From Bacterioplanes sp. (lineage in GTDB: Bacteria; Pseudomonadota; Gammaproteobacteria; Pseudomonadales; Oceanobacteraceae), in NCBI GenBank assembly GCA_014859445.1, contig JACUUC010000001.1, positions 124,001 through 188,000 of the forward strand: a stretch of DNA of 64,000 bases. The letters are read 5' to 3'. A model generated the notes under the pieces. It had not been told where the DNA came from, did not search any database, and saw only the letters and a program-made list of their open reading frames with translations. Numbering within the stretch: position 1 is the stretch's first letter; every line of letters starts with the position of its first letter. Below, in pieces: positions 6,466-64,000 of the stretch. The translations under genes were made by a program, and so were the position numbers.

Positions 6466-7917
6466 GTGACACCTGTTGCTCGTACGTTACTGAGTCTAAG
6501 CATCGGCTTCGGACTCAGCTTTCAAAGTTCACTGCTTGCCAGCCCTGAGCTGCCTAGCCTAGGTGATCGTGCGTCGTCGATTGTTTCTTTGCAACAAGAA
6601 CATGAGCTCGGACGCCTGTGGCTGCGTCAACTTCGCTCGCAAGTCGACACCATCGACCACCCTCTCGCCACCACATTTTTACACGATGTTATCTTTCGGC
6701 TTGTTCCGCACAGCGAAGTGTCCCTCACTGATTTTGAATTTGTGATTATTGACAGTCGTGAACTCAATGCCTTTGCCGTACCCGGCGGCATTATTGGCAT
6801 TAACTATGGACTGCTGCTGCATGCTCGGGATGAAGATGAGTTATCCGCCGTACTCGCCCACGAATTAGCACACATCAGCCAACGCCACTTTGCACGTCGC
6901 TTAGAACAAGCCGAACGCCAACAACCGATTGCCATCGCGACCCTGCTGGCCAGTATTTTGTTGATCGCAAGCAACAATCCCGATGCGGGTTTTGCCGGAT
7001 TGGTTGGCAGCCAAGCCGCCAGCATTCAGAATCAATTGGCTTACAGCCGTGATTGGGAGCGTGAAGCCGATCGAATTGGTATGCGCACTCTGATCAATGC
7101 CGGCTTGGACCCCAACGCCATGTCCAGCATGTTTCAACAAATGCTGCTGGCCAGTCGCTACAGCCAGCGCCCACCCGAATTTTTGCTCACACACCCCATG
7201 ACAGAGGGCCGAATTGCCGATGCAGCCGATCGTGCGGAAACACGTTCGCGTATCAACAGAACTCGGAGTTTTGAATTTGCATTGCTGCAGAATGATGCCC
7301 GATTGCGCTATCAAGTGACTACCGACAAACAGCATCAGTACGTCATCGAACAATTGACAAATGCCCCTGAAACGTCGCTGGACCTTGCGGCCTGGCGATA
7401 CAGTTTGGCCAACTACTTACGGCAACAAGGCAATCCTCAGGACGCCATGAAAGAACTGAACAGCATACCCGCGCCTTGGCAGCACCATCCCGTCGTGATC
7501 GACTTGCACGTGCAACTACTGGATCAACTCGGCCAACAAGGCGAAGCAGATACACAATTGCAGCAAGGAATAACGCTGCATCCCGAGAATTTGGTATTGC
7601 AATTACGCCATGCACAGCGACTGAAACACACCGATACTCAACAAGCCGTTCATGTTTTACGCCACCTGTGTCACCAACACCCGACCAATCCCATGCTCTG
7701 GCATGAATTAGCCGACGTTGCACACCGCGCACACCAAACCGCTCTGAGTCATCGTGCGCAAGCAGAGCAGCTCTTTCTAAATGGTCGTCATGCACAGGCA
7801 TTACGCCAAATGGAAGTGGCACTGGCAGAGGCGCAGAAAAACGGGGATTTCCAACAAATGGCCGTGATTCGTACCCGCTTACACGCCATATCCATCAGTC
7901 CGACCCAACTGCGTTAA
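6466..7917 (+). CDS. bepA: Periplasmic metalloprotease/chaperone BepA (M48 family with TPR)
   Basis: BepA (YfgC) maintains the outer membrane by helping LptD assembly and degrading stalled barrels. The 483-residue protein has an N-terminal signal peptide (about residues 1-25), the zinc site HELAH at 132-136, the third ligand in the YSRDWEREAD segment near 200, and a C-terminal half of helical TPR-like repeats (about 305-480). The start is GTG, preceded by CAGGA. Divergent from the perM-like/tusA-like pair, as in E. coli. Confidence 0.93.
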   Translation: MTPVARTLLSLSIGFGLSFQSSLLASPELPSLGDRASSIVSLQQEHELGRLWLRQLRSQVDTIDHPLATTFLHDVIFRLVPHSEVSLTDFEFVIIDSRELNAFAVPGGIIGINYGLLLHARDEDELSAVLAHELAHISQRHFARRLEQAERQQPIAIATLLASILLIASNNPDAGFAGLVGSQAASIQNQLAYSRDWEREADRIGMRTLINAGLDPNAMSSMFQQMLLASRYSQRPPEFLLTHPMTEGRIADAADRAETRSRINRTRSFEFALLQNDARLRYQVTTDKQHQYVIEQLTNAPETSLDLAAWRYSLANYLRQQGNPQDAMKELNSIPAPWQHHPVVIDLHVQLLDQLGQQGEADTQLQQGITLHPENLVLQLRHAQRLKHTDTQQAVHVLRHLCHQHPTNPMLWHELADVAHRAHQTALSHRAQAEQLFLNGRHAQALRQMEVALAEAQKNGDFQQMAVIRTRLHAISISPTQLR

Positions 7918-7952
7918 CACCCTGCGAACTCCATCGAGAAAATCGCAAGCAC

Positions 7953-7982
7953 AAAAAAGGCGACCCGAAGGTCGCCTTTTTC
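7953..7982. terminator. Bidirectional rho-independent terminator
   Basis: A perfect hairpin with arms at 7954-7965 and 7970-7981 (GGCGACC paired with GGTCGCC, loop CGAA) with A-run on the left and T-run on the right. It separates the convergent bepA and isocitrate lyase genes. Confidence 0.92.
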
Positions 7983-8004
7983 ATACTCAATGAACCGTCA
8001 CAAC

Positions 8005-9603
8005 TTAGATGTTGTTGAACTGGTTAGAGGTATTCTTCGCACCACCGGCTTTCAGGGCACGATCACCAGCGTAGTATTCTTTGTGATCATCACCAATGTC
8101 TGAACCAGACATGTTTTGGTGTTTCACACACGCGATACCTTGACGGATTTCTTTACGCTGAACGCCAGCAACGTAACCCAACATGCCAGCTTCACCAAAG
8201 TATTCTTTGGCCAAGTTGTCTACTGACAACGCAGTCGTGTGGTACGTTGGCAACGTGATCAAGTGGTGGAATACGTTCGCTTCGCGTGAACAATCCGCTT
8301 GGAAAGTACGTACACGTGCGTCTGCATCAGCCGCCAATTGAGAATCGTCGTATTCAGCAGACATCAACTTGCTGCGATCGTAAGCAGAAACGTCTTTACC
8401 TTCAGCAACCCACGCATCGTAAGTTTGCTCACGGAAGCTCAACGTCCAGTTGAACGACGGAGAGTTGTTGTACACCAGCTTCGCATCTGGGTGTACTTTA
8501 CGTACGTCGTTCATCATGTCACGGATTTCGTGAACGGTTGGAACGGCTGTTTCGATCCACAACAGGTCAGCACCGGCATTGATGGCTTCGATACAATCGA
8601 ATACGCAACGCTCATGACCAGTACCTTTACGGAACTCGTACAAGCCAGATGCCAAACGCTTAGGACGAACCAACTTGCCATTACGGTTCAACAACACGTC
8701 ACCGTGCTTCACGTCTTTTACGTCAACTTCTTCAACGTCTAAGTAAGAGTTGTAGATGTCGCCTTGATCGCCTGGCTCGTTAACCACAGCGATTTCTTTG
8801 GTCAAGCCAGCACCTTCAGAGTCAGTACGGGCAACGATCACACCTTCGTCAACGCCCAGTTCCAAGAAAGCGTAACGCAGAGCGCGCAACTTAGCGTGGA
8901 AATCAGCGTGTGGTACGGTTACTTTACCGTCTTGGTGACCACATTGCTTTTCATCAGCAACTTGGTTTTCAATTTGCAAGCAGCAAGCGCCTGCTTCAAT
9001 CATTTGCTTAGCCATCAAGTAAGTGGCTTCTGCGTTACCGAAACCGGCATCGATGTCAGCAATGATCGGCACAATGTGCGTTTCATAGTTGTCGATTTGG
9101 TTTTGGATTTCAGCTGCTTTTGCGTTATCGCCTGCTTGACGAGCCGCGTCCAGCTGACGGAACAAACCACCCAATTCACGAGCGTCAGCTTGACGCAAGA
9201 AGGTGTACAATTCGCGAACTAAGTCAGCAACCACAGTTTTTTCATGCATTGATTGGTCAGGCAGAGGACCAAATGCAGAACGCAGTGCAGCAACCATCCA
9301 GCCAGACAAGTACAAGTACTTACGCTCGGTTGAACCGAAGTGTTTTTTGATTGAGATCAGTTTTTGCTGACCCACAAAACCATGCCAGCAACCCAATGAT
9401 TGAGTGTACTTAGTTTTGTCTTTGTCAAACTCAGCCATGTCACGACGCATGATAGACGCGGTGTACTTAGCAATGTCCAAACCCGTTTTGAATTTGTTTT
9501 GCAAGCGCATGCGAGCAACGTTTTCTGCTTTGATTTCCGCCCAAGGAGCGCCATTTTTTTCAATGACGGCTTGTGCCGTAGTAGTTTCGTTTTGGTATGA
9601 CAT
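8005..9603 (-). CDS. aceA: Isocitrate lyase, long (Pseudomonas-type) form
   Basis: Isocitrate lyase splits isocitrate to glyoxylate and succinate, the first step of the glyoxylate bypass used for growth on acetate and fatty acids. The 532-residue length and the motif EKQCGHQDGKVTVPH correspond to the longer isoform found in Pseudomonas, not the roughly 430-residue E. coli type; the Cys of this motif is the catalytic base. A GGAAGGA ribosome site precedes the ATG. No malate synthase gene is adjacent. Codon usage is strongly biased towards preferred codons, suggesting high expression. Confidence 0.95.
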   Translation of the reverse strand: MSYQNETTTAQAVIEKNGAPWAEIKAENVARMRLQNKFKTGLDIAKYTASIMRRDMAEFDKDKTKYTQSLGCWHGFVGQQKLISIKKHFGSTERKYLYLSGWMVAALRSAFGPLPDQSMHEKTVVADLVRELYTFLRQADARELGGLFRQLDAARQAGDNAKAAEIQNQIDNYETHIVPIIADIDAGFGNAEATYLMAKQMIEAGACCLQIENQVADEKQCGHQDGKVTVPHADFHAKLRALRYAFLELGVDEGVIVARTDSEGAGLTKEIAVVNEPGDQGDIYNSYLDVEEVDVKDVKHGDVLLNRNGKLVRPKRLASGLYEFRKGTGHERCVFDCIEAINAGADLLWIETAVPTVHEIRDMMNDVRKVHPDAKLVYNNSPSFNWTLSFREQTYDAWVAEGKDVSAYDRSKLMSAEYDDSQLAADADARVRTFQADCSREANVFHHLITLPTYHTTALSVDNLAKEYFGEAGMLGYVAGVQRKEIRQGIACVKHQNMSGSDIGDDHKEYYAGDRALKAGGAKNTSNQFNNI

Positions 9604-11085: not shown

Positions 11086-11895
11086 ATGGAACTGTTTGAT
11101 CGTTCGGGGTTAATGCAAGCGACTGGCCTGTCGGAGGCCAAGATCAACTGGGCTTTGCGCCTCATCAAAGGGCCGAAAATGGAGCGTATTTATGCCGAAC
11201 TCGAATACAAAGAAGGGATCTTGCTGATTGAAAGCTTGCTACAACACCTGCAGATTACTCTCGATTACGACGTTGATGCGTTATACCGAGCCATTCCCAA
11301 AGAAGGCCCGTTCATCACCGTATCAAATCACCCATTTGGCTTTCTCGATGGCGTTATTGTGCTGATGATGGTGGGGAAAATTCGACCTAATTTTCGCGCC
11401 ATCGCCAATTTTTTGCTCAGTTACTTCGCCCCCATTTCCGATCTGTTTTTAACGGTCAATCCCTTCGAGACCTCTGGCCCGAAGGGCATGGGAGGCACCG
11501 AAAAATCGTTACACCAATTACGCCAAGGACTCGGGCTCGCGTTATTTCCAGCGGGTGAAGTATCCACTTGGTATCAGGGTCAACGTGGAATCAGTGACCG
11601 TCCTTGGTCATTACGCAGCATGCAATTGATACAACAAGCACAAGTACCGGTCATTCCCATCTACTTTGCTGGAGAAAACAGTCTCAGTTTCCATCTACTC
11701 GGAAAACTACACCCGGCTCTACGCACGGTTCGCATACCGGCCGAAATGTTCAAGAAACAAGGAAGGACGTTACAAATCGCGATTGGTGAACGAATAGAGT
11801 GGCATCAGCTCGCGCAGTACGACCGTGCGGAAAGTTTGCGCGACACCTTGTATGACACGACGTATGCCTTGCAAGAGACATTAAAATCACAGTAG
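11086..11895 (+). CDS. PlsC-like lysophospholipid acyltransferase family protein
   Basis: A 269-residue acyltransferase-domain protein. The catalytic block appears as [10 protein letters not shown] (about residues 83-92), a variant of the H-x4-D motif, followed by the FPAGEVS segment (block III, about 153-159) and [12 protein letters not shown] (block IV). Similar proteins occur near hemolysin-like acyltransferases that make ornithine lipids or modify phospholipids, but the acyl acceptor here is unknown. ATG follows AAAGAGGTAG. Its 3' end overlaps the convergent rnhB gene by 9 bases. Confidence 0.8.
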
Positions 11896-12489
11896 CGCTT
11901 TCACGGGTGCATAACTGCGGCGATGAATTGGGCACGGGCCAAGTCGCCGTAATGCTTCCAAATGCACCGCCGTACCATACCCTTTATGTTGAGCAAAACC
12001 ATAACCTGGGTACTGCTCGTCCATGACCAGCATTTCACGATCGCGTTGAACCTTCGCCAAAATAGAGGCCGCCGCAATACTGGCCACCAACGCATCGCCT
12101 TTGACGATGGCGGTAGCCGCTATGGCCAAGTCGGGAACACGATTACCATCAATTAAGGCGTAACGACAAGACAACTGTAAACCCGCAACGGCACGACTCA
12201 TCGCCAGCATACGTGCTTGTAAAATATTGATGCGATCAATCTCTTCGACCGTCGCCCGAGCAATGCAAAAATCCAATGCACTGTCACAAATCAACTCAAA
12301 TAACGCTTCGCGTTTTTTTTCGGACAATTTTTTCGAATCATTCAACGCATCAATGGGTTTCTCAGGATCTAAGATGACGGCAGCCGCCATGACATCACCG
12401 CATAACGGGCCAGCCCCCGCTTCATCGACACCACAATACAACAGGCGCTGATCCAGTAACTGTTGCTCAATCGCCGTACTCACCTTCAT
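11887..12489 (-). CDS. rnhB: Ribonuclease HII
   Basis: RNase HII removes ribonucleotides and RNA primers from RNA-DNA hybrids. The 200-residue protein opens with [11 protein letters not shown], containing the catalytic Asp22-Glu23 pair, followed by the NDSKKLS segment and an Asp in ALIDGN near residue 114. Its ATG overlaps the lpxB stop as ATGA. Last gene of the envelope operon, as in E. coli, although dnaE does not follow here: the next gene is convergent. Confidence 0.96.
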
Positions 12490-13616
12490 GACAACAGCTC
12501 TGCCACCGCCTGAGCAGCTTGCTCATCAGCGTGACAACGCAACGTATGATGAATCTGGAGAAAATCCGCCTGTAGCTGTTGCGTATTGGCGTTGTCTTGC
12601 AAGAGTTCAAACACGGTTTGTGCCAGACGTTCCGGTGTCGCATCATCCTGCAAGATTTCTGGAACCAACTCACGCCCAGCCAGTAAATTCGGCAACGAAA
12701 TGTAGGGCTGAGTGACCATACGCTTTAATAACCAAAACGTGAGTGGTGCCATGACATAGCTGACCACCATCGGCTTCTTCAGCAACAAGGCTTCTAAGGT
12801 AGCAGTACCGGAAGCCAATAACACCACATTGGACGCCGCCATACAGGTATGAGACTGACCCAGAAAGACATGAATCGGCAAAGCAACCGACAAGGCATGT
12901 ATTTGCTCTAATATTTGCTCGCGCCGTTCTTCATTAGCCGCCGGAATCAAAAACTGAATATCCGGCTGATGCGTCATAAGATTCTGCGCGGTCTGCAAAA
13001 ACACATCACCCAATTTTGCCACTTCACCACGACGGCTGCCAGGCATCAGACACACCAATGGGGCGGACTCATCCACCGCCAATACGCGACGAGCGGCGAT
13101 ACTATCGGTTTGCAAAGGGATCTTATCCGCCAGATGATGGCCAACAAAACGCACAGGCACCTGTTGCTGCTGATAAAATTGCGCTTCAAATGGGAATAAG
13201 GTCAGCATCAAGTCGACGGCTTTGGCGATTTTGATAACGCGCTTTTTACGCCAGGCCCACACTGACGGACTGACATAATGTACGGTTTTAATACCCTGCT
13301 CACGCAGCCGTTGCGCCAGTGTCAAATTAAAGTCAGGGGCATCAATACCAATGAAGACATCGGGTGGATTGGCGCGCCAACGCTGTACTAACGAACGTCG
13401 AATGCCAAGTAATTCCCATAAACGCCCCAGCACCTCAACCAATCCCATCACCGATAACCGTTCCATCGGGTGAAAAGAATCCATTCCTTCAGCGATCATG
13501 AGTGGCCCACCAATGCCTTCAAAGGTCGCATCAGGGTAACGCTGCTTCAGGTGTTTGATTAAACCAGCACCGAGCATATCACCCGATGTTTCTCCGGCGA
13601 CCAGTGCAATACGCAT
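12486..13616 (-). CDS. lpxB: Lipid-A-disaccharide synthase
   Basis: LpxB joins UDP-2,3-diacylglucosamine and lipid X to form the lipid A disaccharide at the inner membrane. The 376-residue length fits the family. The N-terminal [11 protein letters not shown] motif, [17 protein letters not shown] and the C-terminal ASGTATLE segment (nucleotide-sugar binding) are present. The start codon overlaps the lpxA stop codon by one base (TAATG). Confidence 0.97.
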
Positions 13617-53564: not shown

Positions 53565-55468
53565 TCCGTCATACTCTCTAATTCCAACCAACGCTCTTCA
53601 AGGGCTTCCAACTGCTGCTCAGCCTCAGCCAACTCGGCCAATTTGGCTTGCACAGAAGCCGTCTCACCACTGTAAAAATCCGCGTCTTGAGTGATGGCCA
53701 ATAGCTGATCACGTAACGCTTCTTGCTGAACAATTTGCCCTGGCAGTTGATCCAATTCACGCTGCAATTTATAGGACAATTTCTTTTTTTCAGTAGCGGC
53801 AGGCGTTGATTGGGTTGCCGCGGCGGCTGGCTCAGCCGTCGCCGCAGTCGGTTGCTTCGGCATCGACGAGGCGGCTTTCGGACGCTTCTCAATGCGCGCC
53901 TGCCAATCACTGTAACCACCGACGTGCTCTTCGATGTGCCCACCCTCACTAAAGACCCACAAATGCGTGACCACGTTGTCGATAAAAGCCCGATCGTGAC
54001 TGACCAATAACAACGTACCTTGATAGTCCATCAAACGTTCTTCCAGTAACTCGAGTGTTTCCACATCCAAATCGTTGGTGGGCTCATCCATCACCAGCAA
54101 GTTGCACGGTTTTAAAAATAACTTGGCTAACAACACGCGGTTACGCTCACCACCGGACAAGGCCTTCACCGGTGTTCTGGCACGAGCGCCCGAAAACAAG
54201 AAATCACCCAAGTAGCCAATGATGTGACGGCTTTGACCATTCACTTCAACCATGTCTTTGCCATCGGCGACGTTGTCCGCAATGGATTTTTCTTCATCCA
54301 GTTGATGGCGGGCCTGATCGAAATACGCCACCTCTAACTTAGTGCCAACACGCAAGGAACCGGATTGAGCTTGCAAATTCCCCAGCAACAATTTCAACAA
54401 GGTACTTTTGCCAACGCCGTTCGGCCCAACAAGACCAATTCGATCACCGCGCATCACTTGAGTAGTAAAACCAGCCACTTGCGGCTGCGCGCCCCACGCA
54501 AACGCCACATCGTTCAATTCGAATACCAACTTACCCGACGAATCGGAGCTGCTCATGGTCAAATTGGCGGTTCCCACTCGCTCACGTCGATCGCTGCGTT
54601 CTTTGCGCATATTTTTTAACCGTTCAACACGGCCTTCATTACGCGTGCGACGCGCTTTTACACCTTGGCGGATCCACTTCTCTTCTTCTGCCAAGCGCTT
54701 ATCAAATAAGGCATTTTGTGTGGCTTCATCTTCTAAGCGTTTTTCACGGTGCAGCAAAAAGCTTTGGTAATCCCCTTGCCACTCATAAATATGACCACGG
54801 TCTAAATCGAGAATGCGGGTCGCCAGGCTTTGCACAAAAGCCCGGTCGTGGCTGATGAAAATCAGCGTGCCATTAAACTGCTTGAGTTGTTCTTCCAACC
54901 ATTCGATGGTGGCAACGTCCATGTGGTTGGTCGGCTCATCCAGAATCAACAGCTCTGGCTCAACGACTAAGGCACGAGCCAGCATGACACGACGCTGCCA
55001 ACCACCCGATAATTGAGAAAAATTCGTCTCGGCAGGCAAATTGAGCTTTTGAATCACCGAATCCACTTTTTGCTGCCAACGCCAGCCATCAACGGCTTCG
55101 ATTTGACCCTGTAAGCGCTCAAGCACTTGCATGTCGGTGTCTTCACCGCGAGCGATTTCGTCATGGTAGGCGGCAATGACTCGGCCCACATCACCCAAGC
55201 CTTCGGCCACCACATCGTACACCGTGGCGTCATAACCGGCCGGCAATTCTTGTTGCAACACGGCCATACGCAGTAAGTCACGGCGCTGCACCATGCCGTC
55301 ATCCGGCAATACCTCACCATGAATGATTTTTAACAGCGTCGACTTGCCTTCACCATTACGACCGACAATACAAATGCGTTCTCCGCTATGAATTTCGACG
55401 TTCACACGATCCAATAACACATGATCGCCAAACGCCAATTCCAATTGTTTCAGTTGCACCAACAGCAT
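53561..55468 (-). CDS. uup: ABC-F family ATPase Uup
   Basis: ABC-F proteins have two ATPase domains and no membrane part; Uup affects transposon excision and ribosome function. The 635-residue protein has, twice, Walker A (GRNGEGKST about 36-44, GPNGVGKST about 355-363), signature (LSGGWQRR, LSGGERNR) and Walker B (LLILDEPTNHMD, LLVMDEPTNDLD), linked by a charged helical region, and a C-terminal coiled coil (about 560-635). Upstream TATACT box at 55502-55507. Confidence 0.95.
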   Translation of the reverse strand: MLLVQLKQLELAFGDHVLLDRVNVEIHSGERICIVGRNGEGKSTLLKIIHGEVLPDDGMVQRRDLLRMAVLQQELPAGYDATVYDVVAEGLGDVGRVIAAYHDEIARGEDTDMQVLERLQGQIEAVDGWRWQQKVDSVIQKLNLPAETNFSQLSGGWQRRVMLARALVVEPELLILDEPTNHMDVATIEWLEEQLKQFNGTLIFISHDRAFVQSLATRILDLDRGHIYEWQGDYQSFLLHREKRLEDEATQNALFDKRLAEEEKWIRQGVKARRTRNEGRVERLKNMRKERSDRRERVGTANLTMSSSDSSGKLVFELNDVAFAWGAQPQVAGFTTQVMRGDRIGLVGPNGVGKSTLLKLLLGNLQAQSGSLRVGTKLEVAYFDQARHQLDEEKSIADNVADGKDMVEVNGQSRHIIGYLGDFLFSGARARTPVKALSGGERNRVLLAKLFLKPCNLLVMDEPTNDLDVETLELLEERLMDYQGTLLLVSHDRAFIDNVVTHLWVFSEGGHIEEHVGGYSDWQARIEKRPKAASSMPKQPTAATAEPAAAATQSTPAATEKKKLSYKLQRELDQLPGQIVQQEALRDQLLAITQDADFYSGETASVQAKLAELAEAEQQLEALEERWLELESMTE

Positions 55469-55501
55469 CGTATTTCAGTCTCGCGGGATAAATGGGCGCA
55501 C

Positions 55502-55507
55502 AGTATA
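55502..55507 (-). promoter_or_regulatory. Candidate -10 box of uup
   Basis: TATACT on the minus strand, about 34 bases ahead of the uup start codon. No good -35 is seen, so this is tentative. The 143-base gap 55469-55611 between uup and the Mrr-like gene holds this and no other gene. Confidence 0.4.
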
Positions 55508-55611
55508 CTGCAAAGCGCCACAAACTACTGCCTTACGCCAAGCAAAGCCAATCGAGTCATTTCATATTGCCGAGCTGGTTTGGGTTTTGTCTTTTGAAAT
55601 CATCGTCGGCC

Positions 55612-56529
55612 TTAATCATCAAAATAGTCGCTGTCGAACTTCGGTATTTTGACTATACGGGTCGATACACCTACTTCATGATCAATCATCAACTCTGCCA
55701 GTTTAATACCGTCTACCAGTACAATGCGCTCAACTGAATTAGCAAACTCAACGGCCTGTGCTGTATAGGCTGACGTGGTAATAAACACCCCCTTGGTGGC
55801 ACGCTGCCCTGCTAATGCACCATAAAACCCCTGAATTTCTGGCCGCCCAACACTGCTTTGCCAGCGTTTCGCCTGTACATATACTTTTTCTAGGCCTAAC
55901 TTATCCAGCGAGATCACTCCATCAATACCACCATCACCTGAGCCACCAACCCGCTGCAAATCACTACGGTTAGCGCCGTAACCCATTTTATGCAGCAAAT
56001 CTAAAACAATAGTTTCAAAGTAGGTTGGGTTTACCTTGGAAAGTGTTTCCAGTAAGTCAGCAGCTACGCTTTCGCGCATTTCTTTAACAGCCGCACCTAA
56101 ACGCTCTTCCGGGCTGGCGGTTTCGGCAGTGCTATCGGTTGTAGTTGCGACATTAGCCAGCTCAGTAGTTGAAGTGGCTTCCCTCAACCGTACGTCCATA
56201 TAGCCAGTAGCAAGTGCAGCAACTTGCCCCTGCGATAACGGCCCCGCGTTACTTGCAGCAAATGATTTACCTTCATCCGTTAAGCACCACACTCCGCGCC
56301 TAGCAGAGCTAGACAAACCAGCACGTTTTAACCGGTCATGCGCCCAGCCAATACGATTTTTATAAACCTGCTGTGATTGGCTAGGTAATAACTCAGCTCT
56401 CTCTTCGTCTGTTAGCTGCAATGCTTCAGCTGCAGCTTCATAAACCTCGCGAGCTAAGGCGCCATCAGGGCAAGTAGCCAGAAACCGAAGTACGGGCTCA
56501 ATAAATTGGTCGTAGGTAGGAATGGTCAC
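55612..56529 (-). CDS. Mrr-type restriction endonuclease
   Basis: A 305-residue protein. Residues about 1-95 form an Mrr N-terminal winged-helix domain (YDQFIEPVLRFLA...), and the C-terminal part has a PD-(D/E)xK variant core: GDGGIDG (Asp203) and VQAKRW (Gln219, Lys221), where Gln replaces the usual Glu, as is typical of Mrr. Mrr-like enzymes cut modified DNA or act with other defence genes. The GTG at 56529 is preceded by AAGGA with six-base spacing and is preferred over TTG at 56535. Last gene of the defence cluster, 30 bases after the HNH gene. Confidence 0.88.
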   Translation of the reverse strand: MTIPTYDQFIEPVLRFLATCPDGALAREVYEAAAEALQLTDEERAELLPSQSQQVYKNRIGWAHDRLKRAGLSSSARRGVWCLTDEGKSFAASNAGPLSQGQVAALATGYMDVRLREATSTTELANVATTTDSTAETASPEERLGAAVKEMRESVAADLLETLSKVNPTYFETIVLDLLHKMGYGANRSDLQRVGGSGDGGIDGVISLDKLGLEKVYVQAKRWQSSVGRPEIQGFYGALAGQRATKGVFITTSAYTAQAVEFANSVERIVLVDGIKLAELMIDHEVGVSTRIVKIPKFDSDYFDD

Positions 56530-56559
56530 TTTCAATCCTTAAAAGTTAAAAAAACAGCC

Positions 56560-57327
56560 TTATCCTGCATAACCGATGTTGTGAAGATGTACTTCAGCTT
56601 CAGAGCCAAGGTAGCTTCTTATCGAAGTAAAAAACGCAGGCCAATGTTGTTGAGTATCTTTGTTAAGTAGTATTCGTGCTAACTTAGTTCGGGCAGCTTC
56701 TATAGAGAGGCCCATGCTGGTTAACTGTGTTAGTTGCCGGTTTATCTCATCGAGTAACGTTTTTCTAAAACGGTTTAACCGAGCTGAATCTAACCGCAGT
56801 TCAGAAATAGTTGCGGCAGCTTTTGCTGCACTAATTGTCGCGGATTGGCAATTCTGAACATTAACCTTGAGCTTCCCGGTGCTACGCTCCGCTGCAAACA
56901 ACGCCGGAAATGCCGGCAAATGCAAAGGGTTTAAAATAATGGCATCCAGATTTTTGTTGCCTTTGGGTACATCACAACTGTGGTCACCGTTGCCAAAACG
57001 TTCAGCCTCTTCAACTATGTTTCTCTGGCTGCCGCCATGACAACAACCAAGGAGATTCTGCCAGTCCAGGTGCCAGTTATGCGCTGTTGTGGTATCTGAC
57101 TTTGGGTGAAAGTGCTCTACCCTGAAGTCCGCCTCACCTTCATGAGTTTTTGATAGCAACTTAATTTCACAATAAGCACACAAACCAGCTTGGTCATGTT
57201 TTAACTGTTCAGACACCGCCTCTTTTCTGACATCACTGCGTTTAAACTGATCCCAAGTATTTGCGCTGTTGCGCTGCCGATAGGCTTCTAGTAACTCAGG
57301 CTCAGTACCTTTTAGTACTTTTTTCAT
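56560..57327 (-). CDS. HNH nuclease of the TIGR02646/PtuB-like family
   Basis: A 255-residue protein. The HNH module is CAYC (Cys50, Cys53), VEHFHPK (Glu71, His72, His74), then a conserved WQNLLGCC (Asn91, Cys95, Cys96) segment. The TIGR02646-type HNH is the nuclease of the Septu (PtuA-PtuB) anti-phage system and of some retron systems. Its ATG overlaps the upstream ATPase stop (ATGA), so the two form a coupled pair, matching PtuA-PtuB order. Confidence 0.82.
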   Translation of the reverse strand: MKKVLKGTEPELLEAYRQRNSANTWDQFKRSDVRKEAVSEQLKHDQAGLCAYCEIKLLSKTHEGEADFRVEHFHPKSDTTTAHNWHLDWQNLLGCCHGGSQRNIVEEAERFGNGDHSCDVPKGNKNLDAIILNPLHLPAFPALFAAERSTGKLKVNVQNCQSATISAAKAAATISELRLDSARLNRFRKTLLDEINRQLTQLTSMGLSIEAARTKLARILLNKDTQQHWPAFFTSIRSYLGSEAEVHLHNIGYAG

Positions 57328-58625
57328 GCTTGCTCGCGTTCCCAGGCTTTTATTTTAATGTCCATATCCAGTCGGGCTAATTCAGGCTCGTACTCGCCTC
57401 CCCATCTATCCAACTTCTGCCGCAGCGCCTGCGCTTCTTCGCTATCCCACTGATCATCTTCAACTAACTGTTGGTATTTTTTCAAACTCTGCACAATGGG
57501 TAATTGCTCAGCACGGGTGCTGTGCACACCTAAAACATCTAACAACACCTGCTGTGCTTCTGCCCCTTCAGAAAAATCAATCTCCAACAAGCTCGGTGTA
57601 TCGTCTTGCCAATCAATCACACGTAGACACTCAGGTTTGACCGACGAAATCACCTGCGCACTATGGGTTGAAACAATAAACTGAATATTTGGGAAGGTGC
57701 GCTGCAAATCGAGCAGAATATGCTGCTGCCAGCCGGGATGTAGGTGCAAATCTACCTCATCTATAAGCACTATGCCTGATGTTGCTAGTGGATCTGAACT
57801 CTTTGGGTTAGCTTCTGCCATTCTGGCGGCAATATCCATAACCATCGCTAAGGTGGTGCGAAAACCGTCACTTAGCTGCTCAATACGTAACTTCTTTTTT
57901 ATGCCATCGTCTAACCAATCAACTTGAATACCTGCAGGCATAACGCTTTCTGGGTTGCTAAACGCGGGCATCATCAAATTGATTGCACGTCGTATGGCTT
58001 TAAGTTCAGGTAACTCAACATCAAAGGAAAGTAGCTCTTTCTGCAGCTTGCTTTCCTGCGCCTCAAGGAAATAAAAATATTCTACAAACTTTTTAAAGTT
58101 GGTTTTGCTTTCTAAACTGCCATTAAAGGCATCAAAGCGTGGAAATTCGTTAGCAAAATCGCGCTTACGCTGCGGTACGTCAAATACGCCACGGCCTGTG
58201 CCATAGTAGATAAATACCGGTAACTCGTAGCTTAAACCTGCATTTTCAGCATCGATAAATTCATCTACGTAATCATTTAACTGTCTAATACCCAGCGCTG
58301 TTGGAATAAGATCGGCGGTCCTTTTACTCTTGTCGCGCTTTTCGGTTCTATCCCAGCTAACACCGTCAAAACTCTCGGCGGTTAAACGCATAAAAGCGGG
58401 TTTGCTGCCATCGGCATTTACCTGAAAATCATTATCTTTAGGATTAATACCATTAACTTTGGGCAAGCGGGTCAAAAAGGCACCCAACAATGTAGCAATA
58501 CCATCAAGCACAGAGGTTTTACCGGCACCATTGCGCGCCACCAAAACCGTTAAATGCTGATGCAACGGCAAGCGAAAATCAGTAAAACGGCGAAAGTGCT
58601 GTAAATGCAGAGTTTTAATTTTCAA
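57324..58625 (-). CDS. AAA ATPase, PtuA-like partner of the HNH protein
   Basis: A 433-residue ABC-type/AAA ATPase. Walker A ARNGAGKTS (about 30-38), signature-like LSDGFRTTLAM (about 252), Walker B IVLIDEVDLHLHP (about 287-299) and a switch His in STHSAQV (about 320-326), the layout of the RecF/Septu-type ATPases. The length is smaller than typical PtuA (about 550 residues), so it is Septu-like rather than a certain match. TTG start with GGGGTAAG ahead, overlapping the hsdS end by 11 bases. Confidence 0.8.
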   Translation of the reverse strand: MKIKTLHLQHFRRFTDFRLPLHQHLTVLVARNGAGKTSVLDGIATLLGAFLTRLPKVNGINPKDNDFQVNADGSKPAFMRLTAESFDGVSWDRTEKRDKSKRTADLIPTALGIRQLNDYVDEFIDAENAGLSYELPVFIYYGTGRGVFDVPQRKRDFANEFPRFDAFNGSLESKTNFKKFVEYFYFLEAQESKLQKELLSFDVELPELKAIRRAINLMMPAFSNPESVMPAGIQVDWLDDGIKKKLRIEQLSDGFRTTLAMVMDIAARMAEANPKSSDPLATSGIVLIDEVDLHLHPGWQQHILLDLQRTFPNIQFIVSTHSAQVISSVKPECLRVIDWQDDTPSLLEIDFSEGAEAQQVLLDVLGVHSTRAEQLPIVQSLKKYQQLVEDDQWDSEEAQALRQKLDRWGGEYEPELARLDMDIKIKAWEREQA

Positions 58626-60099
58626 CAGACTTACCCCAGCTTTTTTTTGTTTGGCTTAATTTAGCACGTTCGGTTTTAATTTTCGCCAGCAACGCCTCAG
58701 CGCTATGCTCACCACAAATCAGCTCAGGGTTAGCCGCCCGCCAGTCAGCGGTGAGTTCACCACGAAAGGCTTTGGCGAGGATGGATTGGGTGAGGTTATT
58801 GACCCGACTAAGCGCTGCCTGCGCGGCTTGTTCAATGCGGTCGGCAAAGGCAAAGAGCTCTTCTACCCGGCGGACAATTTCGGTTTGTTCTTCAGGTGAA
58901 GGCATTGGGATTGGCAGCAAACTTAATGTGGTTTTATTAATACTTGCAAGGTTAACTGATTGAGTCCCGTTTCTTAAAAAATATTCCTTCCCTTCGGAGT
59001 TACCATAGAAAGAAATAAATTTTGACTCAATTTTTTCTGAGAAGCAGCGCGCCCTAAAAACATGATTTTGATGAATACAATCGTCTATTTGTGATTCCCA
59101 AATCCAACCACGGCCAAGCTTGTCAATGTCGCCACCTTCATTAAACAAAATATCACCATACTGTAATTTCAATGACTCTGCTTTATCTGGTGACACCTCT
59201 ATTTCCTTTATCTCGTCAAGATTAAGATAGCCGCGCTGCACATTTGCTACTCTAAGATATGGACGAGAAACTGTTTCACCGTTAGATTTTGAGCCTTTTG
59301 CAACTCCACTTGCAATATCAGCTATCTTAGATAAACGAACCCAAGACCAATCACCGGGCGTTACTATCGTAATTTCTTCAGCTGATATTGGTTTATCAGC
59401 CAACTCCAATATTTTTTTTGATTTAATAAGACCGCTAAATGTTTTAACAAGATCAGAAATATCCGAACACGAATTATCTTCACGCCACTCCTCCGTCAAC
59501 TTGCCACTTACCGTGGCGGCGAGGACGGATTGGCGGAAGCGTTTTAGGATGTCGGGGATGCGCTCGAGGCGGGCTTTGGTGTTGTCGACCTGTGTCAGCA
59601 AGGTGTCGAGTTTTTCGGCGATGACTTTTTGTTCGGCTAGTGGGGGGAGTGGAAACTCATAACCCTGAACGTCAGACGATTTCGCTGCAGGGTACAGCGC
59701 CCCCTGAACGGCACCACTTATTGCATCAATAAAGTGCTTAGAACGCGTCAATGCAAAAACATAACGTCCATCGACAATCAACGGTTTGATAACTTCAAAG
59801 CCTGTTGAAGCTATCTGCTCATTAAGCTCGTCAGGAACAAGTGCTACAGCATTAAGATTCGGTCTTGTCAAAGAAACAAGCACATCGCCTGAGTTTATGA
59901 CCTTCCTCGCCCGACTTGGTGCGGAATCGCCGAGTAACTTCTGCGGTGTCTGTATAATTTTCAGGTCTCTGTTGATGCTGCCAATATCAACGTAGATGAA
60001 CTCTTCTGATGCGTTAGGTGTACGTTGTTCGCCTTTTGTTGCAATGTCGCTTATTCGAGAGAGACACCAACCTTTCGGTAGATTAACCTCAGCCATCAC
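58615..60099 (-). CDS. hsdS: Type I restriction specificity subunit HsdS
   Basis: HsdS recognises DNA and binds HsdM and HsdR. The 494-residue protein has two target-recognition domains (about 1-150 and 230-400) separated by conserved helical regions (LAEQKVIAEKLDTLLTQVDN, about 155-175, and PEEQTEIVRRVEELFAFADR, about 405-424), the normal two-part layout. It overlaps hsdM by 4 bases (GTGATG with TGA). The second recognition domain predicts a bipartite site that cannot be read from the sequence. Confidence 0.93.
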   Translation of the reverse strand: MMAEVNLPKGWCLSRISDIATKGEQRTPNASEEFIYVDIGSINRDLKIIQTPQKLLGDSAPSRARKVINSGDVLVSLTRPNLNAVALVPDELNEQIASTGFEVIKPLIVDGRYVFALTRSKHFIDAISGAVQGALYPAAKSSDVQGYEFPLPPLAEQKVIAEKLDTLLTQVDNTKARLERIPDILKRFRQSVLAATVSGKLTEEWREDNSCSDISDLVKTFSGLIKSKKILELADKPISAEEITIVTPGDWSWVRLSKIADIASGVAKGSKSNGETVSRPYLRVANVQRGYLNLDEIKEIEVSPDKAESLKLQYGDILFNEGGDIDKLGRGWIWESQIDDCIHQNHVFRARCFSEKIESKFISFYGNSEGKEYFLRNGTQSVNLASINKTTLSLLPIPMPSPEEQTEIVRRVEELFAFADRIEQAAQAALSRVNNLTQSILAKAFRGELTADWRAANPELICGEHSAEALLAKIKTERAKLSQTKKSWGKSVEN

Positions 60100-61661
60100 A
60101 CCGCCCCTTCCAACGCCTTTAACAACCCATCCAGCTCACTGAGCGCAGCTTCCAGCTCATCTTTTGCTTCACGCGCCAGCACGTCTGGTTCTGGCAAATT
60201 GGCGGCATCGACGCTGTCTTTGTCTTTTAACCAGCTAATATCCAGCGAGTCGGCTTTAAGCTCGCGGATCCACTCGCGGCTAAACGTGCGCCAGCGGCTG
60301 TGGGCCAGCTTGCTGTCTACGCCCTGGTTTTCATCGGTTTCTGCTACTTCAACCTGTTCAGCATTAAAGCTATATTCTCCCTCTTCGCGCGGGCTTTGGC
60401 CGTTGGCATCGTCGCCAAACACCGCTTCAAACGGCGTTAAATGTTGCTCACCAAAGGGCGTGCGTTTGCCAAAGCTGGGCATATTGGTGCGCAGGTCATA
60501 CACCCACACGTTCTCGGTGCAGTTTTCTTGCTGGTGTTTGTCTTTAGCGCTGCCTTTAGTAAAAAACAGCACATTGGTTTTAACGCCCTGTGCATAGAAG
60601 ATACCGGTGGGCAGGCGCAAGATGGTGTGCAGGTTGCACTTGTGCATTAAATCGCGCCGCACCTCGGTGCCGACACCGGCTTCAAACAATACGTTATCGG
60701 GCAGTACCACCGCGGCGCGACCGCCGGGTTTTAAGTTGCGGTAAATATGCTGCAAAAACGCCAGCTGTTTATTGCTGGTTTTATAGGTTAAATCGTCACG
60801 GGTATTGCTGGCCTCGCCACCTTTGCTGGTGCCAAACGGCGGGTTGGCTAAGATAATATCGGCACGCGCTAAGCTTTTACCGCTATCACCCAGCGCATTA
60901 CCCAGATGCACCACGCCCTCAGCGTCACCTTCCATACCATGTAATAAGCAATTCATGAGTGCTAAACGGCGGGTGCCGGGCACCAGTTCAATACCAACAA
61001 AGGCGTTATTGCGCTGAAAGCTTTGTTCTGTGGCAGTGAGATCATATAAATCATCCGTCTGCTGTTTAATATACGCATCGGCGGCAATTAAAAAACCAGC
61101 GGTGCCGGCCGCCGGGTCTTGCACTACCTCGCCCGGCTTGGGCTTAATACAGCGCACCATGCTGTTAATTAAGGCGCGCGGGGTAAAGTATTGGCCAGCA
61201 CCCGATTTCGTTTCGCCGGCGTTTTTCTCCAGCAAGCCTTCGTATAAATCGCCCAGGCCGTCTTTGGCGGCGCTGAACCAGTCTATTTGGTCCAGCGTTT
61301 TAATCATCTGCTCTAAATGGCGTGGCTCACGTAAACGGGTTTGCGCATCGGCGTAAATGGCACTGATCAGCGGGTCTTCATGCACCAGATTGCCCAGTGC
61401 ATCTTTGCCGGTCGACAGGCTTAATAGAATGCGTTTGTAGTCATCTAGCAGGTTAATGCCTGACTTGCCGTTTAAGTCGGTCCAGCGGCAGCCCTCTGGC
61501 AACGGGTGTTTTTTTAAGGTGCCGGCTTCGGTGTTTTCATGCACCATTTTAATAAACAGCAGCAGTACCAGCTCGGTGACGTAATCGCTGTAGTTAATGC
61601 CGTCGTCGCGCAGTACGTCACACAGGTTCCAGAGTTTTTGTACAATGTCGTTGTTGGTCAT
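60096..61661 (-). CDS. hsdM: Type I restriction modification methyltransferase HsdM
   Basis: HsdM makes N6-methyladenine at the site chosen by HsdS. The 521-residue protein has an N-terminal HsdM_N domain (about 1-130), methyltransferase motif I DPAAGTAGF (residues 182-190) and motif IV NPPF (273-276), and a C-terminal coiled region. ATG 61661 follows a weak GAG. hsdM comes 20 bases after the TOPRIM-like gene, so the two are probably on one transcript. Confidence 0.95.
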   Translation of the reverse strand: MTNNDIVQKLWNLCDVLRDDGINYSDYVTELVLLLFIKMVHENTEAGTLKKHPLPEGCRWTDLNGKSGINLLDDYKRILLSLSTGKDALGNLVHEDPLISAIYADAQTRLREPRHLEQMIKTLDQIDWFSAAKDGLGDLYEGLLEKNAGETKSGAGQYFTPRALINSMVRCIKPKPGEVVQDPAAGTAGFLIAADAYIKQQTDDLYDLTATEQSFQRNNAFVGIELVPGTRRLALMNCLLHGMEGDAEGVVHLGNALGDSGKSLARADIILANPPFGTSKGGEASNTRDDLTYKTSNKQLAFLQHIYRNLKPGGRAAVVLPDNVLFEAGVGTEVRRDLMHKCNLHTILRLPTGIFYAQGVKTNVLFFTKGSAKDKHQQENCTENVWVYDLRTNMPSFGKRTPFGEQHLTPFEAVFGDDANGQSPREEGEYSFNAEQVEVAETDENQGVDSKLAHSRWRTFSREWIRELKADSLDISWLKDKDSVDAANLPEPDVLAREAKDELEAALSELDGLLKALEGAV

Positions 61662-61681
61662 GCTTTACTCGAGTTTAAAAA

Positions 61682-62194
61682 TTATTGGCCTTGTAACAGT
61701 TCGCGTACTGCTACAACTGAGGTATTTTGCGTTGCAATTACCACCGGCAAGGTAAATAAGCTAGCGTAAGCTTCCGGTTTGGTATGATGCGCAGCCAAGC
61801 GCGGATGCAACCGTTGCTTAAGAGCCTGACTGCTCTCATGGGGTTGTACCCTCTCACCCAACACGTCTAGCAGGGCACCTTCTAAGCAGTGTGGTTGCCA
61901 TAAAATAATCTGATAGCCTGCCGCTTTGGCATTTTTTATATCAGCTGAGGTTGGTGGAATATCATCGTCAAGTACGAAGTAGCGATAGTTATAGTCTTCT
62001 GCCTGATAGGCGCGGCTGGCATGGGTAATAATATTCCCCGGTGAACCACCATCTCCTGCCTTTACTGTAACCCTGCGGCCATGGCCCCTTTGTACCAGCA
62101 AGCTTTTAAGGTGATCGATAAAGGCTTTGTCATCACTGCCCTCGCCAACAACTAAGAGCGTGGTCAAACTGACATGGCGCGGCTTCCTTGGCAT
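61682..62194 (-). CDS. Small TOPRIM/RloB-like protein in the hsd operon
   Basis: A 170-residue protein not matched to a named family with certainty. Its pattern (VVGEGSDDKAF with Glu18, then SPGNIITHASRA, then YFVLDDDIP with Asp76-78, then PHCLEGAL with Glu105) follows the TOPRIM-like RloB proteins that pair with RloA-type ATPases. The acidic residues could bind metal for nuclease action; this is inference. It follows the ATPase gene by 8 bases and precedes hsdM by 20, so it is embedded in the operon. Confidence 0.65.
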   Translation of the reverse strand: MPRKPRHVSLTTLLVVGEGSDDKAFIDHLKSLLVQRGHGRRVTVKAGDGGSPGNIITHASRAYQAEDYNYRYFVLDDDIPPTSADIKNAKAAGYQIILWQPHCLEGALLDVLGERVQPHESSQALKQRLHPRLAAHHTKPEAYASLFTLPVVIATQNTSVVAVRELLQGQ

Positions 62195-62202
62195 GCATGC
62201 TC

Positions 62203-63387
62203 CTACAAGTTTGGCACAGCGCCCAGGGCACCCGCCATATATTTAGCGTACAGATTATCGTCGGCACGTAACCCTACAATGTCATCAGCCCGCCAGGACT
62301 CGCTGCACTGTCCGATTTTTTCAACCAGATACACTTGATGTTTTTGCAATAGGTTCAGCACCTCTGGCGTATGACAGGTAAAAATAAGCTGTGCCTGTTT
62401 GGGGTTGGTATGTTCAAAGCGGAACCAATCCAACAGGATGGGGACCAGGTGGGGATGTAAATCGTTATCCAGCTCATCAATTACCGCGACGCCACCTTGT
62501 TGCAAGGTTTTTAATATCGGTTCTAATAAGACAAAAGCAGACTGGGTGCCGCTGGACTCGTCAAAAAACGGCAGCTCAAAATTTTTACCGTCATCAGTTT
62601 GATGCAGACCAAAAGGTACATAAATAGTGCCTTCTTTTCCCGTTTCATCACGACTGATTAATTGTTTAATTTCAACACGACTAAGCCCCAAGTCAAACTG
62701 GCACATCGCCTCTGTCATTGGTTCTAAAAGTTCAGGGGCATGGGCAAACCTTTCGGCAGCGCGCATTAGTTCGCCATGCTGAAAATGACGGCGGCCGGAA
62801 CTGGCCACATTCGTTTCTATGTGCTGAAAATAGTCAACAAAGCCTTTTGCTTCTGCCACGTCAAAATTATGTGCAGCACTGATAATGGATGCATTGCTGC
62901 GAATTTTTTCAGCTTGCGGCTTGGCAAAGCCAAAGCCTTTTTGCTTAACAAGGTAGCCGTCGGCTTGTTTTTCACGCTTAATTAAATAACTAAATTGATT
63001 GCTGGTTTTCTCAAATAACGCTTCAAACTGTACTTCTTTTTCCTTAAGAACGAGTTGATAGCGGTAATCTTTACCCTTGTGAAAGAATTCCAGCTCAAAC
63101 ATGGTTGGTAAAATTTCTTTAAAGCGATGGGGTTCATAGGGAATACCCTCATCAGGCGCTGTGCGCAAAAACGAGTTTGCAATAAACCAGCTTAAAAATG
63201 CCAGTGGCTTTAACAGTTGTGTTTTACCCGAACCATTGGCACCGATAATGGCTATGGCTTTATTAAAACGATCACCATCAACGTGAATATCAAAACCGGA
63301 CGGCGTGGGCTTTTTGCCTAATGCAAAATCAATCACCGTCTCTTCTGCAAAGCTGTAGAAGTTACTGAAGGTTAGTTTCTTAAGCAT
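62203..63387 (-). CDS. AAA ATPase of the RloA/AbiLi type
   Basis: A 394-residue ATPase (AAA15/AAA21-like). Walker A GANGSGKT (residues 49-56), a signature-like DESSGTQ (about 276-282), Walker B AVIDELDNDLHP (about 301-312) and the switch His in TCHTPEVLN (about 337-345). The start was set at ATG 63387, where the conserved domain begins; the open frame to 63519 adds 44 residues with no support. Paired with the small TOPRIM/RloB-like protein, a common defence pairing. An AT-rich gap separates it from hsdR. Confidence 0.82.
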   Translation of the reverse strand: MLKKLTFSNFYSFAEETVIDFALGKKPTPSGFDIHVDGDRFNKAIAIIGANGSGKTQLLKPLAFLSWFIANSFLRTAPDEGIPYEPHRFKEILPTMFELEFFHKGKDYRYQLVLKEKEVQFEALFEKTSNQFSYLIKREKQADGYLVKQKGFGFAKPQAEKIRSNASIISAAHNFDVAEAKGFVDYFQHIETNVASSGRRHFQHGELMRAAERFAHAPELLEPMTEAMCQFDLGLSRVEIKQLISRDETGKEGTIYVPFGLHQTDDGKNFELPFFDESSGTQSAFVLLEPILKTLQQGGVAVIDELDNDLHPHLVPILLDWFRFEHTNPKQAQLIFTCHTPEVLNLLQKHQVYLVEKIGQCSESWRADDIVGLRADDNLYAKYMAGALGAVPNL

Positions 63388-63582
63388 GAAAAGCTCATTT
63401 GAACAAATTTTTGTGCATTTTGCGCCACAACAGTGAATTAAACAAGCTTTTAGTACCGACTTCTCTACGCAGTGATAAAAATTAAACAGATATAAAAAAC
63501 GCCACAAATTAGGCATCAACAGTTACATATGCATAAAAAATAGCAAAAACTATACATCCGATGCTTTGTTTTAAGCTGGCTG
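63388..63582 (-). other. AT-rich gap between hsdR and the ATPase gene
   Basis: 195 bases with no coding support. It is AT-rich and contains TTGATG, TATATC and similar boxes on the minus strand that could form a promoter, but no pair with ideal spacing was found. It suggests that the genes downstream of hsdR can have their own promoter. Confidence 0.35.
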
Positions 63583-64000
63583 TTATGCCCAGATCGCGTC
63601 GGAAAGCTCTGCTAACACTTGTTCCAATTGATCCTCCAACACCACATTCAACCGTTTAGCACCGCCATCGTTAGCAAAGCAGTTATTCACAAAATCGCGG
63701 TCGACCACCACTTCGTGTACCAGCTGTTTGGCTAGCCGCTCTAACCATTTACGTTGGTTAGGATTAAAACTGTGTTGCTGATACAAGCGCTGCATGGCTT
63801 GGGCTACGCGTTGCTCAAACGGCAACAGTGGCTCGCCCAGCGCAGCACGGCGAATATGGCCAATAATGCTGGCGGCAATGTCTTGGTTGGTTTGGTTGCG
63901 CACCGCGCTTTGCAGTTTGGCTTCGGAATAGCCTGCGCCATCGAGCAGCAGCTTCACTTCTTTTAGCTGCTCGCGAGATAAATCACGCGGCTTGTTGACC
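63583..64000 (-). CDS. hsdR: Type I restriction enzyme HsdR, C-terminal part (cut by window edge)
   Basis: The frame is open to the end of the window and encodes about 139 residues of the C-terminal helical domain. The opening NKPRDLSREQLKEVKLLLDG followed by GYSEAKLQ and the ending of conserved helices (NCFANDGGAKRLNVVLEDQLEQVLAEL) match the EcoEI-type HsdR C-terminus. HsdR is the translocase/nuclease subunit of the type I system; its motor and nuclease domains lie beyond position 64000. Its stop is followed by a 195-base gap. Confidence 0.82.
   Translation of the reverse strand, partial: VNKPRDLSREQLKEVKLLLDGAGYSEAKLQSAVRNQTNQDIAASIIGHIRRAALGEPLLPFEQRVAQAMQRLYQQHSFNPNQRKWLERLAKQLVHEVVVDRDFVNNCFANDGGAKRLNVVLEDQLEQVLAELSDAIWA

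Follow-up and report, generated by a model that had tools for sequence, protein, structure and literature searches.

The locus

The window, that is the whole stretch of 64,000 nucleotides of Bacterioplanes sp. DNA analysed here, runs at its far end into a type I restriction-modification operon. The gene order is hsdR, abiLi, abiLii, hsdM, hsdS, ptuA, ptuB and mrr. Two open reading frames of 394 and 170 residues lie on the minus strand between hsdR and hsdM, exactly where the first-pass annotation of this DNA had placed them. The features of the region are as follows.

63583-64000, minus strand: 3' end of hsdR; the whole gene (L006:3584-7102) encodes 1172 residues
63388-63582, minus strand: leader between the hsdR stop and abiLi, 195 bp, 67% AT versus 53% for 55001-64000
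62203-63387, minus strand: abiLi, coding for AbiLi, an RloA-like ABC/Rad50-like ATPase of 394 residues with its ATG at 63387 (PADLOC, Pfam, conservation and AF2)
61682-62194, minus strand: abiLii, coding for AbiLii, an RloB-like small TOPRIM protein of 170 residues, predicted nuclease or toxin (PADLOC, conservation and AF2)
61662-61681, minus strand: spacer between the abiLii stop and the hsdM start, 20 bp
61662-63582: variable cargo slot from the hsdR stop to the hsdM start, 1921 bp in the window
60096-61661, minus strand: hsdM, 521 residues (Pfam N6_Mtase, E 7.7e-78; PADLOC MTase_I, E 9.9e-224)
58615-60099, minus strand: hsdS, 494 residues (Pfam Methylase_S; PADLOC Specificity_I, E 1.8e-136)

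The hsd reading frames that flank the pair are all open. HsdR extends beyond the end of the window, is intact over its 1172 residues and matches Pfam EcoEI_R_C, ResIII and HSDR_N. The genes are tightly packed, with an overlap of 4 bp between hsdS and hsdM and a spacing of 8 bp between abiLi and abiLii. The window copy of abiLii is the single match to it in the host genome at E ≤ 0.001.

The AT-rich leader of 195 bp may contain a promoter of the pair's own. A consensus scan found two promoter-like sites (shuffled sequences gave 3.4, sd 2.1), none of them on the minus strand. Ten terminator-like sites were found (shuffled sequences, 3.8, sd 2.0), of which a weak one on the minus strand, at 63517-63498, lies in the leader behind hsdR, while most of the others are inside genes. 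The site at 63517-63498 may partly insulate hsdR from the pair.

Further defence genes follow hsdS. A Septu-type ptuA/ptuB pair at 56560-58625 directly overlaps the end of hsdS, and an Mrr-family type IV restriction gene at 55612-56535 closes the cluster. The order hsdS-ptuA-ptuB is found also in the loci L151 and L166, and because their order matches that of the window a second docking place may exist at the 3' end of operons of this type. The hsd operons of L032, L034 and L154-L156 have Mrr-like genes nearby as well.

Identity of the pair

The pair is AbiLi/AbiLii, an RloA/RloB-like AbiL system, and is in itself a known kind of phage-defence module. The first-pass annotation had likened the two proteins to the ATPase and TOPRIM partners RloA and RloB, and the profile searches bear this out. 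The ATPase matches the PADLOC AbiLi model PDLC02335 with an E of 3.2e-74 and Pfam AAA_21 with an E of 2.1e-26. The small protein, which had been said to lack a clear match, is in fact matched by the PADLOC AbiLii model PDLC02338 (E 1.6e-18), and the same model matches 73 of the 75 aligned AbiLii proteins at E ≤ 0.001. The Pfam RloB family (PF13707) is matched by 59 of these 75 rows at E ≤ 0.01, with a best value of 1.9e-11. The window AbiLii itself reaches an E of 0.0023 and 18.6 bits, and because this score is below the curated RloB cut-off of 31.5 bits the protein is named RloB-like only.

Among the PHROGs, the ATPase matches phrog_5836, the function of which is unknown, and nothing matches AbiLii at E ≤ 1. 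A sequence search of the PDB with AbiLii returned a single match with an E of 1.2, which is not meaningful. Nine stretches of viral contigs fit the pattern, and none of them encodes a relative by tblastn.

Two other architectures were considered for the pair and rejected. It is not a Septu system, for the partner of the ATPase is AbiLii and not the HNH nuclease PtuB. It does not have the PrrC/RloC architecture either, since there are two genes and neither product matches a HEPN family of Pfam at E ≤ 1.

Conserved motifs and predicted structures

AbiLi has a Walker A motif around G49-T56, a signature-like ESSGTQ at 277-282, a Walker B motif with D304/E305, and H339. Residues G49, G54, K55, D304, E305 and H339 are present in 79 of 79 aligned rows. 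The AF2 model of the protein (pLDDT 91.2) resembles Rad50 (Z 20) and the PtuA proteins of Septu and retrons (Z 17-18).

AbiLii carries the acidic E ... DxD signature, formed by E18, D76 and D78. E18 is found in all 74 ungapped rows and D76 and D78 in all 75, while K126 is kept in 74 and E105 in 71 of the 75. The candidate metal site proposed in the first-pass annotation, Glu18 and Asp76-78, is thus conserved at E18, D76 and D78, and D77 is variable.

The first-pass annotation had taken the small protein to be TOPRIM-like, and the predicted fold of AbiLii is that of a TOPRIM domain of the OLD type. In its AF2 model (pLDDT 89.6, pTM 0.84) strands and helices alternate. The top VIA-align match of the model is 2p62, an archaeal protein of unknown function (Z 9.8). 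The C-terminal regions of OLD proteins align over 143-144 residues with Z scores of 8.2-9.2 and an rmsd of 4.0-4.2. Models without a match commonly reach a best Z only slightly lower than such values of 8-9. A designed Rossmann protein comes after the OLD regions with a Z of 7.7, followed by values of 6.7 and below. In Foldseek, every PDB match of AbiLii has an E above 0.001, and the OLD entries are outranked by lumazine synthases. As Foldseek gives no significant match, the assignment of the fold leans also on the motifs and the profiles.

Relatives of the pair

A scan of one genome per species for relatives of the ATPase gave 530 pattern matches. Relatives are encoded by 291 of these, and the best 80 were kept. 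An AbiLii reading frame (140-225 residues, with AbiLii as its best phmmer match) lies beside the ATPase gene in 77 of the best 80 loci of 291; AbiLi and AbiLii are conserved as a unit. The pair is located between hsdR and hsdM in 20 of the best 80 loci of 291, and in a 21st, L073. The remaining loci of the best 80 have no match to these hsd genes nearby, are cut by a contig end, or lie near other type I genes. The slot copy of L073 (10001-11317), from Psychrobacter, has abiLi split into two frames, with hsdR, abiLii, hsdM and hsdS open.

The 23 embedded pairs included in the AbiLi tree all belong to one starred clade of 33 rows. The same clade holds six pairs without these hsd genes, three pairs with short flanks and one pair near an hsdR remnant. 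The nearest relative of the window pair, with 85% ATPase identity, is the solitary pair L012 of Nitrincola alkalisediminis, which has thrS-like and uvrB-like genes as neighbours and no match to the window Hsd proteins within 10 kb. The pair of L020 is also solitary, between a transporter gene and ureD, and no hsd gene is annotated around the AbiL copies of Vibrio and Photobacterium plasmids.

Within the order, 14 of 390 genomes have an AbiLii match at E ≤ 1e-10, and six of the eight closest AbiLii proteins of this sample (at least 149 bits) are encoded in the slot. Genome G373 has a solitary AbiL pair and carries a Fic gene in its slot, and in G661 (L178, seemingly identical to L021) the pair is found about 4 kb from an hsdR remnant. 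The first search of the class with AbiLii gave four non-self matches. The class-search loci L002 and L003 are pairs without hsd genes in their flanks of 1.5 kb; L004 and L005 were dropped because the AbiLii matches fall inside what look, by eye, like other genes.

The pair is also found beside other type I genes. At L069:6205-14967, an unrelated type I operon has AbiL between its hsdS and hsdR genes, which is also the arrangement of prrC. In L057 the AbiL pair comes just after an EcoR124-type hsdR. L067 and L080 resemble each other in combining type I genes with an AbiL pair and with genes that look TIR-like by eye, and represent a different combined defence locus.

Occupancy of the hsdR-hsdM junction

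An HsdM search of 390 genomes of the order gave 50 matches at E ≤ 1e-100 in 48 genomes. The slot survey took the 40 order matches of at least 480 bits other than the window's own, together with 15 further loci from searches of the class (369 genomes), the family (44) and the phylum (398). Left out of the slot count were the nine of the 50 order matches below 480 bits, which include the partial G464, as well as L123, the contig of which ends before hsdR, and L169, which has no HsdR match. Apparent repeats (L015/L124, L027/L125, L024/L129 and L018/L167), which agree in the lengths of their contigs and genes, were counted once. The subtype of the window was delimited by an HsdM of at least 730 bits (phmmer) and the presence of both hsdR and hsdM, and comprises 37 loci with the window included. 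Ten slot proteins and the pair of L165 were scanned with Pfam, and the others were assigned by phmmer to the tested members.

The slot is filled in 34 of the 37 loci of this subtype, by Fic in 22, AbiL in 7, Abi_2 in 3 and other genes in 2. Three loci have no gene there, the two hsd genes being 105 bp apart in L131, 27 bp in L164 and 61 bp in L168. When HsdM is more distant (476-606 bits), the slot is filled in 2 of 17 loci. One of them, L161, has a Fic gene there. In the other, L165 (reverse strand, 7470-8158), a PIN-domain gene (PIN_3) is preceded by a small upstream gene in a toxin-antitoxin-like arrangement, of which the Pfam scan matched only the second gene; this locus was counted although its contig ends within hsdR and leaves 198 residues of the protein (116 bits). 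The contrast of 34/37 with 2/17 has a Fisher p of 1.1e-8, the loci sharing ancestry and not being independent trials. The hsdM-hsdS junction served as a control; among the 31 loci of this subtype in the order sample, one has a gap of at least 700 bp there. These two comparisons indicate that the slot is more selective than a generic defence island.

At the hsdM-hsdS junction of L152 (oriented 11626-12666) there is a gene of 346 residues, DUF1016-like by eye.

The Fic motif HPFxDGNGR is kept in all 24 slot Fic proteins checked. Of these, 21 match SSxIE[G/N] and two more have SSxVEN; L153 is without a match to SSxIE[G/N]. A pattern of this kind is known from self-inhibited Fic proteins. The three Abi_2 slot proteins all have the R-x4-6-H motif of the HEPN type. 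Since the Fic and Abi_2 motifs are kept, most of the slot cargo appears to be a latent effector that could stop growth, and AbiL fits this pattern.

Other contents of the slot are more diverse. Two of the 34 fillings are not obvious toxins: L154 (reverse strand, 7522-9551) has three slot genes, one unassigned, one coding for a weakly AbiEii-like nucleotidyltransferase and one PP2C-like, and L157 has an Imm11-like gene. The slot of L167 extends over 5.96 kb and has several other reading frames besides AbiL, and L031 has one of 219 residues, with no evident toxin feature, between hsdR and abiLi. AbiL and Fic share a single slot at L019:9992-13029, in the order hsdR, abiLi, abiLii, fic, hsdM.

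Exchange of the cargo and co-evolution

The boundaries of the slot were compared in nine pairs of loci, of which seven have unlike cargo classes, one has two unlike Fic genes and one has Fic genes of the same kind. In all eight unlike-cargo pairs, the DNA homology ends at most 114 bp ahead of the hsdR stop and restarts at a distance of 48 bp or less from the annotated start of hsdM. L143 and L130, the two loci whose Fic genes are alike, align continuously through the slot.

The best HsdM tree, of 62 proteins, is enriched for AbiL, since 20 of the 62 proteins and at least 10 of the 24 AbiL rows were found through AbiL; it has 19 cargo changes, compared with a mean of 30.0 after shuffling, and none of 200 shuffles was as low. 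The starred branches alone require at least eight changes for Fic and at least six for AbiL. The cargo is thus partly inherited and often swapped. The HsdM nearest to that of the window (87%) belongs to L122, which carries Abi_2. The hsdM genes of L140 (AbiL) and L162 (Fic) have about 89% DNA identity and different cargo, and such combinations of similar HsdM and different cargo can be regarded as natural swap experiments. The breaks of homology at the boundaries, together with the 19 cargo changes, identify the junction as an exchange slot for mostly toxin-like effectors.

Distance correlations over the 23 embedded loci were used as a substitute for a direct test of contact between AbiLi and AbiLii. 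The proteins form two evolutionary modules, HsdR with HsdM (r 0.89) and AbiLi with AbiLii (r 0.85), and the correlations across the two sets are 0.59-0.68. The distances of AbiLi correlate with those of HsdR and HsdM with r of 0.59-0.62 (Mantel, 0/999), species kinship not being removed. Given HsdR, the partial correlation of AbiLi with HsdM is 0.25.

Possible function of the pair

By bringing these results together, it is possible to propose what the pair does. It is probably a self-contained AbiL-type abortive-infection module, carried in the exchange slot as second-line cargo. We infer that the ABC ATPase AbiLi would sense infection and hold the small TOPRIM nuclease AbiLii in check. A trigger would then release or activate AbiLii, which may cut a nucleic acid that the cell requires to grow, most probably RNA and perhaps tRNA, by analogy with AriB of PARIS. 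The cell would stop before the phage is completed. The module would be cargo between hsdR and hsdM of one type I lineage, its place being taken elsewhere by Fic-family or Abi_2 (HEPN-like) proteins. Because the module sits in the exchange slot, the host operon would carry an interchangeable second line of defence.

Two precedents, as given in the available portions of the sources, are consistent with this mechanism. An RloB-family TOPRIM_OLD protein and an AAA protein have been validated as a toxin-antitoxin pair by toxicity neutralisation (PMC10440598). AriB is a Toprim nuclease, freed from a complex with its ABC ATPase, which cuts tRNA-Lys (PMC12409363, PMC12707154). The existence of solitary AbiL copies suggests that sensing of HsdRMS is not required.

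The association with the restriction genes could also be one of neighbourhood alone, and the chance of this is not far below even. The junction would simply tolerate insertions, defence genes would gather there, and the pair would be linked to and transferred with the hsd genes with no functional tie to restriction. The solitary AbiL copies are in agreement with this explanation, as are the separation of the proteins into two evolutionary modules, the additional defence genes after hsdS in the window and the other reading frames in slots such as those of L167 and L031. A junction chosen only for its tolerance is harder to reconcile with the hsdM-hsdS junction of the same operons, which is gapped in just one locus of the control, and with a filling that is near-universal in this subtype and rare elsewhere.

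It is possible, if somewhat doubtful, that the pair guards the restriction enzyme, in line with the sensing of the HsdR/HsdM state that the first-pass annotation had suggested. HsdRMS would hold the pair inactive, or be watched by it, and the pair would fire when phage anti-restriction proteins disable HsdRMS, in the manner of PrrC. The place of the pair inside a type I operon is suggestive of such a coupling, and a related pair lies between hsdS and hsdR of the unrelated operon of L069. Unrelated toxin-like proteins in the same slot would be expected if HsdR/HsdM controls any cargo, and the correlation of AbiLi with HsdR/HsdM distances, with its component of species kinship, points in the same direction. 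PrrC inside EcoprrI provides the precedent in the accessible parts of three papers (PMC3874165, PMC3710099, PMC12707154). However, AbiL pairs are often solitary, as in L012 and L020, the pair supplies its own ATPase partner, and the partial correlation of AbiLi with HsdM is low once HsdR is given.

A broader proposal, which we consider rather unlikely, is that the hsdR-hsdM junction of this type I lineage is a socket dedicated to effectors. HsdR/HsdM or the assembled enzyme would act as a common sensor or latch for chemically unrelated effectors, namely the TOPRIM nuclease, the Fic-family proteins and the HEPN-like Abi_2 proteins, each of which would arrest growth once the enzyme is disabled by anti-restriction proteins. 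If true, it would generalise the single case of PrrC and EcoprrI to an exchangeable guard architecture.

The target of AbiLii might also be different from the one proposed above. The protein could be a Gabija/OLD-like DNA nuclease that degrades phage DNA, instead of a growth-arrest toxin. The GajA profile matches it weakly (E 4.6e-6; 46 of the 75 rows at E ≤ 0.001), and its predicted structure is similar to the OLD fold. This is nevertheless unlikely, because the TOPRIM subunit is small and separate, as in PARIS and AbiL, and because TOPRIM_OLD pairs neutralised by an AAA protein have been scored as toxin-antitoxin, as reported in a section of PMC10440598.

The identification of the pair as a PARIS (AriA/AriB) system, entertained in the first-pass annotation, is very improbable and was rejected: the two-gene ATPase-TOPRIM layout is shared and PADLOC AriA matches the ATPase at E 9.7e-32, but this match covers the stretch that generic AAA_21 also matches and the AbiLi/AbiLii models fit far better, while no AriB model of PADLOC matches the small protein at E ≤ 1, for which reason the pair is not filed as PARIS (AriA and AriB are also absent among the structure-search matches listed, which excludes nothing).

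Comparison with known systems

Several elements of this picture are already published: hsd loci that contain rloAB, Abi and Fic genes, and the proposed displacement of toxins in restriction-modification operons. AbiL, known from Lactococcus lactis, is an ABC ATPase-Toprim system according to the parts available of PMC12409363 and PMC10440598. The window pair is similar to it in consisting of an ABC-type ATPase and a TOPRIM-type protein, for both of which the AbiL models are the best of PADLOC. It differs in being chromosomal and inside a type I operon.

The C. jejuni locus is a close parallel. In the restriction-modification region of Campylobacter jejuni M1, rloA and rloB (CJM1_1491 and 1492) lie, by locus number, between hsdR (1490) and hsdS (1493) in the portion seen of PMC2928727. 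There, hsdS and then hsdM follow the pair, whereas in the window the pair separates hsdR from hsdM. The window AbiLii also falls short of the Pfam RloB cut-off. A passage of PMC10440598 mentions the occurrence of RloB in type I operons and its relationship to OLD_TOPRIM. The type I locus of Histophilus somni 2336 has the order HsdR, Abi family protein, S subunit, Fic and M subunit according to a figure legend (PMC3339403). In that locus Abi and Fic flank the S gene and there is no AbiL, and the accessible text of the paper does not discuss a slot.

Excerpts of the literature also describe restriction-linked toxins in general terms. Repeated displacement of toxins in restriction-modification operons has been proposed, along with a hypothesis that couples immunity to suicide (PMC3506569). 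Abi2 is embedded in such operons, and DOC occurs with restriction-modification genes plus RloC (PMC3710099). An hsdR-hsdM slot with AbiL as an alternative to these HEPN/Abi2 and DOC toxins is not described in the available parts of the two papers. In the portions of open-licence PMC full text that were accessible, no description was found of an hsdR-hsdM slot in which Fic, Abi_2 and AbiL replace one another, and those of PMC4420470, PMC5675462 and PMC10568477 contain nothing on it. A fail-safe role of toxins at restriction-modification loci has been proposed in the accessible parts of PMC3506569 and PMC3710099, with PrrC as the worked example. The slot allows a direct test of this old idea, that restriction operons as a rule carry fail-safe toxins which can be interchanged.

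The window pair shares with PARIS the two-gene logic of an ATPase and a TOPRIM protein, and differs from it in lacking an AriB profile match. Its likeness to PrrC in EcoprrI is of another kind: in both cases a growth-arresting gene, which AbiLii is predicted to be, is embedded in a type I operon. PrrC, however, is a single ABC-HEPN protein, whereas the window pair consists of two genes with a TOPRIM-type protein and belongs to a family whose members are often solitary.
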